Source: Runella sp. (lineage in GTDB: Bacteria; Bacteroidota; Bacteroidia; Cytophagales; Spirosomataceae). Taken from it: a DNA stretch of 48,464 nt. Below the pieces are notes generated by a model that was given only the letters and a program-made list of their open reading frames with translations, searched no databases and had not been told where the DNA came from. This document shows, one piece after another, positions 34,722 to 37,083 of the stretch. The stretch is from assembly GCA_023254175.1 (NCBI GenBank), contig JALQYJ010000137.1:1-48464 (forward strand), in the 5' to 3' direction. Made by a program: the position numbers and the translations under genes. Positions within the stretch are counted from its first letter, which is position 1, and each line of letters opens with the position of its first letter.

Positions 34722-35339
34722 TTAGGATATTTTCGTTTTCAAAAACGATTTTACTACTTCTAAGCCGCGATGGAAATGGCGGTTGTTGGGAATAATCAAA
34801 TCAGCCTCTGCTTTTGAAGGCTTAATAAACTGCTCATACGTCGGAAAAACGTGGTTTTCCCAGCGGTAAAGCACATCAGTCAAATCGTATCCGCGTTCTA
34901 CTTGGTCGCGAATGATACGGCGTTTGAGTTTGATATGCTCTTTGGCATCAATAAAAATCTTGAGGTCAAGTAACTCAGAAATTTCTTTGAAGTAAAACAC
35001 AAATATACCTTCGACTACAATAATGGGAGTAGGCCGAAAAGTCAACATTTTTGGAATAATATTCGGATTATTAAAGGTATACTCTAGCTTTTCAACTGGT
35101 TTTCCTTCACGGAGTTGAATGATATGTTCGGCGTACGCACGGTGATTAATGGCCACAGGCAAATCAAAATTATGAACACCATTATCATCCACTGGAACTT
35201 CGTGCCGAGGACGATAATAATGGTCTTGTGAAATAAGGCAAATTTCATCTTCTGAAAAAGCTCCCATCAAACTATTCAAAAAATACGTTTTTCCCGATGC
35301 ACTCCCGCCCGTGATACCAACGATAAAAGGTTTTTTCAT
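34722..35339 (-). CDS. udk: Uridine kinase
   Basis: 205 aa P-loop kinase that phosphorylates uridine and cytidine in pyrimidine salvage. The Walker A motif G11-G-S-A-S-G-K-T18 is followed by SQDHYYRPR (substrate-binding Asp/Tyr), the INHRAYAEHIIQLREGKPVE region, VVEGIFVFY (Walker-B-like) and RRIIRDQVERGYDLTDVL (lid arginines). The ATG at 35339 is unambiguous. It is divergent from the cysS leader region, with 76 bp between the udk ATG and the cysS -7 box. Confidence 0.94.
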   Translation of the reverse strand: MKKPFIVGITGGSASGKTYFLNSLMGAFSEDEICLISQDHYYRPRHEVPVDDNGVHNFDLPVAINHRAYAEHIIQLREGKPVEKLEYTFNNPNIIPKMLTFRPTPIIVVEGIFVFYFKEISELLDLKIFIDAKEHIKLKRRIIRDQVERGYDLTDVLYRWENHVFPTYEQFIKPSKAEADLIIPNNRHFHRGLEVVKSFLKTKIS

Positions 35340-35389
35340 CCGGTAAAGTTACAGTTCCAGCCGCAAATACTGAACTTACAGCACGGATT

Positions 35390-35423
35390 TTGTACACGAA
35401 GCCACAACAAATTATTAGTTTTG
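35390..35423 (+). promoter_or_regulatory. Promoter of the cysS leader
   Basis: TTG (35390-35392, within TTTTG), a 23-bp spacer and TAGTTTTG (35416-35423, TAnnTTTG). The predicted start near 35430 puts the poly-Cys leader ORF about 18 nt into the mRNA and cysS about 118 nt in. Confidence 0.65.
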
Positions 35424-35447
35424 CATTTATTAATTCTGTTTTTAACT

Positions 35448-35495
35448 ATGCCCATCACAAAATTTACTTTCGCTTACTTTCGATGTTGCTGCTAA
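35448..35495 (+). CDS. Poly-cysteine leader peptide ORF upstream of cysS, 15 aa
   Basis: Fifteen codons read MPITKFTFAYFRCCC, then TAA at 35493-35495. The last three sense codons are TGT-TGC-TGC. It lies between a good promoter (35390-35423) and cysS (ATG 35548, 52 bp after this stop) in the same direction, exactly where a ribosome-sensing leader would sit. Slow translation of the Cys run when charged tRNA-Cys is scarce would be the signal. No strong intrinsic terminator follows; the only hairpin is a 5-bp GTTTT/AAAAC, so control would have to be by translational coupling, Rho or nascent-chain stalling (FTFAYFR is aromatic-rich). Functional assignment is inference from position and codon content. 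Confidence 0.65.
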   Translation: MPITKFTFAYFRCCC

Positions 35496-35547
35496 CCTGT
35501 TTTGAAATTTAGTCTAAAACCTGAATAGTAGCCACTTAATATATCTT

Positions 35548-37083
35548 ATGAAACAACCACTCAAAATTTATAACTCTCTCACTCGACAGAAAGAACTTTT
35601 TGAACCCATCAACGCTCCGTACGTAGGAATGTACGTTTGTGGACCGACGGTTTATAACTACGTACACCTTGGTAACGTACGTACCTTTTTGACATTCGAT
35701 ACGCTATTTCGTTACCTTTCGCACATTGGTTATAAGGTGCGCTACGTTCGTAACATTACCGACGTAGGCCACCTTGTAGGCGACGGCGACGAAGGGGAAG
35801 ATAAAATCGGGCGCATGGCAAAACTGGAACAGTTAGAACCTATGGAAATCGTCCAGCGCTATACCAACGATTTTCACCAAGTGTTGGAACAACTCAACTT
35901 TCGTCCGCCAAGCATTGAGCCAACCGCCACGGGTCACTTAATTGAGCAGATTGAGGCCGTTAAAGACCTAATTGCAAAAGGATTGGCGTACGAGTCAAAC
36001 GGCTCGGTTTACTTCGACATCAATAAATACAACGGCGAAGGCCATAATTACGGAAAGCTTTCGGGTAGGGTATTAGACGAACTTTTGACCGAAACCCGCG
36101 AACTCGAAGGAACCAGTGAAAAACGCAATCCGCTCGACTTTGCCATTTGGAAAAAAGCCGCTCCTGAGCACATCATGCAGTGGGAGTCGCCTTGGGGCAA
36201 AGGATTTCCAGGCTGGCACCTAGAGTGTACTTGCATGAGTACCAAATACTTAGGAAAGCAATTTGACATTCATGGAGGTGGGATGGACCTTAAATTCCCT
36301 CACCACGAATGCGAAATTGCGCAAGGAACGGGTATCAACGGTACCGACCCCGTGCGCTATTGGATGCATTCCAACATGCTCACTGTCAACGGGCAGAAAA
36401 TGTCAAAATCACTCGGCAACTCGTTTTTACCACGTGAGCTGTTTGCAGGAAACCACCCACTTCTCGACCAAGCATACAGCCCAATGACGAGCCGTTTTTT
36501 CATGCTACAGTCGCAATACCGAAGTACACTTGACTTCTCTAACGACGCGTTGAAAGGCGCGCACAAAGCCTACAAGCGCTTGATGAATGGGTTAAGAGCC
36601 ATCAAAGAAATGACGTACATCCCTGCTGAGGTAAACACCAGCAACGATGAGGTAGGATTGAAGATATCAACGCCTTGTGTTCAGGTGGATGAGAAAAAAG
36701 TGGCTGACATCAAAAAATCAGTGCAGGCATTTTACGATGCAATGAACGATGATTTGAACACAGCGGTGGCAGTAGCACAGTTGTTTAACATGTTGAAATA
36801 CATCAACATGCTTTATTTGAATCAGCTCGTTCCTGCCGCCTTGGGTGAAGATGGATTTTCAGCACTCAAAAACAACTTTATCACCTTTACAGAAGAAATT
36901 CTTGGTTTGATTGAGGAGCGTAGCGAAAACGATGCCGTCTTAAACGGTATGCTTGACTTATATCGTGAATACAAAGCCGCTCAACAATACGAAAAAGTAG
37001 ACCAAATTCGTTCGTACTTCAAAGCTCAAAACCTGGTCATCCGTGACATGAAACATCGCATTGATTGGGCATATGAGGAGTAG
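35548..37083 (+). CDS. cysS: Cysteine--tRNA ligase
   Basis: 511 aa class I synthetase. [15 protein letters not shown] holds the zinc-ligand Cys31 and the HIGH-type motif HLGN (40-43). [12 protein letters not shown] carries the second zinc cysteine, with H and E ligands in [22 protein letters not shown] lies at 284-288 ([13 protein letters not shown]). Residues ~345-385 carry a short extra segment ([20 protein letters not shown]) between the helical subdomains, probably lineage-specific. The mRNA has a 118-nt leader encoding a poly-Cys peptide. A DUF192 gene follows 23 bp downstream and may be co-transcribed. Confidence 0.97.

Follow-up and report, generated by a model that had tools for sequence, protein, structure and literature searches.

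The stretch of DNA analysed here (the window) comprises 48,464 nucleotides from a Runella sp. contig, and the features around its cysS gene are collected in the table below. A leader ORF of 15 codons (ATG CCC ATC ACA AAA TTT ACT TTC GCT TAC TTT CGA TGT TGC TGC TAA) is followed, after a spacer of 52 bp between its stop and the cysS ATG (35548), by a 511-aa ORF which matches the TIGR00435 cysS profile at 428.4 bits (cut-off 340). The sequence and this profile match confirm what an earlier sequence-only reading had described, namely an ORF ending in TGT-TGC-TGC-TAA 52 bp ahead of cysS. Its statement that no intrinsic terminator separates the two also held, with no terminator-like site detected by the terminator scan in 35400-35560, which takes in the leader ORF and the spacer up to cysS. 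The box of TAnnTTTG form is what we take to be the Bacteroidota-type -7 motif, and a transcription start approximately 18 nt upstream of the leader ORF is plausibly predicted from it. Rfam covariance models gave no match up to E = 1 in 35300-35700, and hence no T-box.

Table 1. Features of the cysS leader locus within the window.
Feature	Position	Strand	Basis
Divergent gene, phosphoribulokinase/uridine kinase family	34722-35339	-	family assignment
Putative -7 box TAGTTTTG (TAnnTTTG) of the cysS leader promoter	35416..35423	+	sequence read
Leader ORF MPITKFTFAYFRCCC	35448..35495	+	sequence read; ATG at 35448, TAA at 35493-35495
Phe11-Arg12 codons TTT CGA ahead of the Cys run	35478..35483	+	sequence read
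Three Cys codons TGT TGC TGC (positions 13-15)	35484..35492	+	sequence read
Predicted helix, 5' arm GCTGCTA (Cys codons and part of stop)	35488..35494	+	duplex folding
Predicted helix, 3' arm TAGTAGC, 16-22 nt upstream of the cysS ATG	35526..35532	+	duplex folding
cysS, cysteine--tRNA ligase, 511 aa	35548..37083	+	TIGR00435 match

Three adjacent Cys codons had been held to be rare by chance, a claim which counts in the window's own genome contradict. The pattern TGYTGYTGYTRA (three Cys codons and a stop) is found 22 times, against 30 for the reversed pattern, and 18 of the 22 matches sit within open frames of at least 150 aa. Four lie outside long frames (one in L020, two in L025 and the window ORF), and only the window ORF is leader-like. 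As TGYTGYTGYTRA is not rare in the genome, the Cys run carries no weight by itself, and the evidence lies in where it stands and in its conservation. Outside long frames, contig C93 of this genome also carries repeats of TGCTGCTGCTGCTGATAC (L025 1501-1550). No wider regulon was found in the family of the window, CCC-TAA occurring 132 times in nine genomes vs 127 for the reversed pattern. A further 67 stretches containing 73 such matches were read; 66 matches fell inside frames of at least 110 aa, and none of the remaining seven lay ahead of a sulfur gene recognisable by eye. The pattern TTYCGATGTTGY was rejected as a regulon marker: it occurs 130 times vs 74 reversed in 13 Runella genomes, yet only 12 matches are cysS leaders. 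Fifty TTYCGATGTTGY stretches were read, covering every own-genome match and part of those from the other Runella genomes. Eight lay outside long frames, and the leader-like ones among them were the cysS ones only.

In each of the 13 Runella genomes examined, cysS is preceded by a short ORF that has RCC or RCCC at its end or close to it, with no loss of the ORF seen among these close relatives. In two of the 13 the ORF has five more residues after RCC (RCCQYSMV, RCCQYSIV), and the remainder of the peptide varies (MFLKNFRVDLFRCC, MLLIRLHTSWFRCC, MSKHTFNKMIFHFFRCC; here and below these peptides run to the stop codon). Loci were scored as uORF+ where a short ORF contained CCC, FRCC or TIICC with the Cys run no more than six residues from its end. 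This criterion selects 52 of 252 cysS loci and misses six (L007, L104, L248, L250, L267, L293) which have Cys leaders by eye. Within the window's own family 25 of 80 named cysS loci are uORF+: nine Runella-type, seven Emticicia-type (MSYTSAFRCCCCC), five Spirosoma (MQPKGNFFLSAHCCC), three Flectobacillus-type (..AYFRCCL) and one Pseudarcicella (MTYFRCCL). The short ORF of Siphonobacter L104, MNHVALLSFSFPVFRC, has a single Cys when read by eye. No CC-bearing short ORF of the leader kind was found in the cysS loci examined from Dyadobacter, Larkinella, Telluribacter, Persicitalea and Arcicella. L072 and L086, recorded as Flavobacterium sp. SUN052 and Cellulophaga sp. BC115SP, each have a cysS with 75% identity to the window's, and these labels may be wrong.

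Beyond this family, upstream regions of cysS were compared across Bacteroidota, 23 of the 252 being dropped as near-identical or short to leave 229. A short ATG ORF with CCC is present in 24 of these, whereas 100 dinucleotide shuffles gave 0.25 on average and never more than 2. The figure of 24/229 is not a prevalence, because two families (f5, presumably Chitinophagaceae, and f6, presumably Weeksellaceae) were enlarged after the first leaders had turned up. In the same 229 regions Leu runs numbered 12 vs 7.0 in shuffles, and Thr runs 5 vs 1.2. Thirty hisS upstreams (24 f5, 4 f6, 2 Runella) served as a control: CCC and His runs were absent from them, and CC occurred once. A phylum-wide draw yielded three leaders (L175, L188, L190) among 29 loci, and a class-wide draw none in 24, both draws being the best-scoring matches and not an even sample; a further nine chosen loci (L325-L333) also contained none. 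The expectation that the ORF and its Cys run would be conserved in relatives survived in three families, with the 30 hisS upstreams free of CCC.

The leaders of the two additional families are of different character. In f6, 13 of the 57 loci read carry a leader of the form M(I/T)(K/R)FKK..IF..TIICC.., one (L286) being more divergent. Its stop lies 42-68 nt ahead of cysS at 13 loci and 277 nt ahead at a fourteenth, L293. Across 13 related rows N/S is 0.47 vs 4.1 for neutral change under even mutation (ratio 0.12). Codon changes are thus mostly silent, the pattern of a translated peptide under selection, and the f6 leader peptide looks to be under purifying selection. In f5, a CCC-bearing short ORF precedes cysS at 13 of the 56 loci read, and these leaders have little in common beyond the Cys run (MRFYHLYCCCC, MILSSKYCCCCCC, MKHLHLYCCYCCC). 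Over all 52 uORF+ loci the distance from leader stop to cysS start is 36-167 nt, with 43 at 36-82 nt and larger gaps in the Emticicia-type loci, L038 and L111. Of the 52, 30 have a TAnnTTTG box, whose median distance to the cysS ATG is 131 nt (5 within 75 nt). Among the 200 other loci, which still include a few with Cys leaders outside the criterion, 83 have one, and the median distance is 45 nt (58 within 75 nt). The more distant promoter box in uORF+ loci fits ORFs lying within lengthened 5' UTRs.

A second target gene is cysH, a sulfate-assimilation reductase gene, which was sought in 76 genomes after the CCCC-stop scan described below. Of these, 65 had a match, and 63 upstream regions were analysed once two weak matches (G411, G363) were left out. 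A CCC-bearing short ORF precedes cysH in 15 of 32 f5 genomes, all of them among the 20 closer relatives of the query (0/12 in the other f5 genomes), and in one of nine f6 genomes (L430). None was found in 12 Runella genomes or in 10 other named relatives. Among non-redundant cysH upstreams 16 of 58 have such an ORF vs 0.11 in shuffles, and at 15 cysH loci the leader stop lies 42-134 nt from the start codon. In L390, a second gene with a PAPS-reductase domain follows cysH and is read as cysD. The presence of poly-Cys ORFs ahead of cysH as well strengthens the tie of the leader to cysteine.

Rfam models run on 18 + 16 sources matched five, in each case a SAM riboswitch. The riboswitch is on the cysH strand in L401 and L409 (RF00162 in both), which come from two genomes of one f5 genus (G045, G360), and on the opposite strand near cysH in L402, L406 and L415. 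The order in L401 (2211-2652, minus strand) and L409 (2211-2638, minus strand) is SAM riboswitch, a hairpin with a T run (by eye), poly-Cys leader ORF and cysH; the L401 hairpin is absent from the list of the simple terminator scan. It is possible that riboswitch and leader together form a two-signal gate at these two loci. A GTAGAC-type motif was also seen by eye to recur in the cysH promoter region of L393, L400, L405 and other f5 upstreams, and is perhaps a regulator site.

Longer Cys runs were scanned in an unbiased way in 13 genomes (11 f5, 2 f6), where CCCC-stop gave 62 matches vs 11 reversed. Three of these are the known cysS leaders of L317, L304 and L255. Since 49 of the other 59 stretches, all of which were read, fall within frames of at least 120 aa, the excess is mostly not leaders. 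The ten outside long frames comprise three before cysS, two before cysH and five before neither (L336, L346, L349, L368, L374). L336, L349 and L374 come from one genome (G408), and the CCCC-ending frame of L336 lies 218 nt upstream of the start of a gene that appears SusC-like by eye.

Comparison of genomes shows the ORF, where it lies, that it is conserved and that it goes with cysteine genes, and the proposal of a Cys or Cys-tRNA sensor in Bacteroidota gains support from conservation in three families and from the cysH leaders. As a Cys-rich short ORF directly before a cysteine gene (cysS), the leader has the layout of a ribosome-mediated (amino-acid codon) attenuator in the broad sense. From these comparisons it is very probably a cis-acting sensor of Cys-tRNA; that it is translated, that ribosomes stall in it, and in which direction and at what RNA step it acts are what we infer. 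Charged tRNA-Cys would be sensed in cis by translation of the leader ORF. When Cys-tRNA is scarce, a ribosome would slow or stall on the Cys codons close to the ORF end, and the stalled ribosome would raise expression of the adjacent downstream gene, which is cysS in the window and also cysH in f5. In Runella the step would most likely lie in translation. When no ribosome stalls, the Cys codons and leader sequence close by would pair with the stretch before the cysS start, and a stalled ribosome would leave that stretch unpaired. Taken as a whole, a leader that senses charged tRNA-Cys and raises the downstream gene, with unmasking in Runella, is the best explanation and a probable one. Against it count the many relatives (Dyadobacter, Larkinella, Telluribacter and others) whose cysS lacks the ORF, and the 12 Runella genomes with no CCC leader ahead of cysH.

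The Runella step was examined by folding. In the window the duplex between the Cys codons with the stop and the region before the cysS start has a z of -3.87 (0/300 shuffles as good), and the same duplex reaches -6.0 in L036 and -5.0 in L037. Of the 52 cysS leaders tested, only the window's own and those of L036, L037 and L002, which are near relatives, reach z < -3; mean z for Cys-run pairing is only -0.60 over the 52 and -0.46 over 15 cysH leaders. Taken in full, the window leader shows no folding advantage over shuffles (z -0.08), and the subregion 35484-35570 has a z of -1.30. An unmasking test, asking whether a ribosome on the Cys codons would open the start region, gave Fisher p values of 1.4e-4 to 6.3e-4 under four settings for five Runella lineages, themselves related, that were retained after L036 and L007 (2/7 rows) were omitted as near relatives. 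The p values under the four settings were 0.19, 0.025, 0.19 and 0.058 for the window alone and 0.38, 0.05, 0.37 and 0.074 for L036 alone. Across 52 leaders of all families (37 cysS, 15 cysH) the mean change was 0.055 vs 0.046 in shuffles. Pairing of the Cys run with the start region was rejected as a mechanism common to all families on this result and the weak mean z. Because folding support is found in Runella only, translational unmasking is proposed for Runella, and the mechanism of the other families is possibly different. On these models unmasking of the cysS start is a tentative suggestion, with somewhat less than an even chance of being right.

A stalled ribosome could also act on transcription, by blocking premature termination that is Rho-dependent or, in some species, occurs at a weak intrinsic terminator. 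Attenuation is proposed for a cysS leader of Rhodobacterales in the accessible part of one report (PMC8632094), and the accessible part of another suggests Rho, as a weak prediction, for terminator-less cys leaders of Mycobacterium (PMC1262725). Terminator-like hairpins were found in 4 of the 52 leaders of the all-family test (37 cysS, 15 cysH) vs 0.6 expected in shuffles. One of the four is in L316, where a small hairpin is built from the last Cys codon together with the stop and is trailed by a T-rich stretch; as folded, it would be a direct transcription attenuator. However, the window leader and 48 of the 52 have no terminator-like site, and a 52-nt spacer would be short for a Rho loading site. 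We regard control through termination as unlikely.

Arrest might instead arise from peptide or codon context, i.e. from FRCC with its CGA-TGT pair, or from FKK..IF..TIICC in f6, acting through the nascent chain or the codon pair and not through plain starvation. In FRC-type rows the Arg codon is CGA in 23/23 and the first Cys codon TGT in 23/23, vs backgrounds of 0.149 (CGA as a fraction of all Arg codons, counted over the long frames of 13 loci of this type) and 0.537. As the rows are related, many of them closely, this constancy is a lead and not a measured constraint. Selection on the f6 peptide also extends well upstream of the Cys codons. However, the f5 leaders share little except the Cys run, and the Spirosoma leaders lack FR. 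The aromatic FTFAYFR stretch, suggested previously as an aid to stalling, is not conserved as a whole: ahead of the Cys run only F-R is conserved, in part of one family, and L007 has L-R. Arrest of this kind is distinctly unlikely as the principal cause.

That the ORF encodes a small functional peptide (e.g. one binding metal) which shares the cysS transcript by coincidence would accord with the conservation of the f6 peptide, but outside the Cys run the peptides differ across families, the number of Cys varies and the constant feature is position ahead of cysS or cysH, which makes this very improbable. A chance ORF, functionless in the window's genome, is scarcely credible given its occurrence in all 13 Runella genomes and its recurrence elsewhere far above shuffles, even though TGYTGYTGYTRA is not enriched genome-wide.

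A fuller version of the sensing leader would be a cysteine regulon of Bacteroidota's own. Its poly-Cys leaders would mostly lack intrinsic terminators, the CGA-TGT pair or a conserved nascent peptide would sharpen stalling, cysS would be linked in f5 to cysH-cysD, and one genus would, in two of its genomes, have a SAM riboswitch stacked in front as a two-signal gate. This is speculative and, on balance, doubtful. If the Cys-tRNA sensor itself is real, it would be a cysteine sensor open to direct testing, from a phylum for which few reports of amino-acid leaders were found, with the same simple device, a codon run, ahead of the same gene in distant families. Bacteroidota make little use of Shine-Dalgarno sites. 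Combined with leaders that lack terminators, this raises the question of how a stalled ribosome alters expression. The window leader is compact (15 codons, 52-nt spacer), and codon-by-codon testing is feasible.

Poly-Cys leaderless ORFs were reportedly described in mycobacteria by Canestrari in 2020. The mycobacterial ORFs are reportedly leaderless and precede biosynthesis operons, whereas a 5' UTR of approximately 18 nt is predicted for the window and the target is a tRNA ligase. Leader peptides with Cys runs are described, in the part of the report available, for the cys operons of Mycobacterium and P. acnes and for cbs of B. longum (PMC1262725). These actinobacterial leaders resemble the window leader in that consecutive Cys codons lie close to the end of a short ORF ahead of cysteine genes, and in having no conserved terminator. 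For M. smegmatis, translation attenuation is stated in the available excerpt (PMC13236596).

Within Bacteroidota, the accessible text on Flavobacterium psychrophilum, of the same phylum as the window, offers hints of leader-peptide attenuation ahead of amino-acid operons, describes mRNAs of aminoacyl-tRNA synthetases with structured 5' UTRs, and names no Cys leader or cysS (PMC9723704). Short ORFs in long 5' UTRs are noted in the available part of a study of Bacteroides thetaiotaomicron (PMC7366714). No report of Cys leaders in Bacteroidota was recognised in the literature covered, in which subscription journals are thinly represented and supplements excluded.

A close counterpart is the uORFC-8-2 motif of Rhodobacterales cysS, described in the accessible part of its report as an AUG ORF in which two Cys codons stand in tandem, as a rule at positions 14 and 15, together with two prominent stems and a 3' U run (intrinsic terminator), for which ribosome-mediated attenuation was proposed (PMC8632094). 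As in that motif so described, tandem Cys codons occur in the window within a short AUG ORF directly before cysS. The window leader differs in having no terminator-like site and in belonging to a different phylum, and its f5 counterparts also occur before cysH. Leaders built on Cys codons are thus already known, from Actinobacteria and, with a terminator, from Rhodobacterales cysS, and we rate the Bacteroidota leader as a variant of them and not a new kind.
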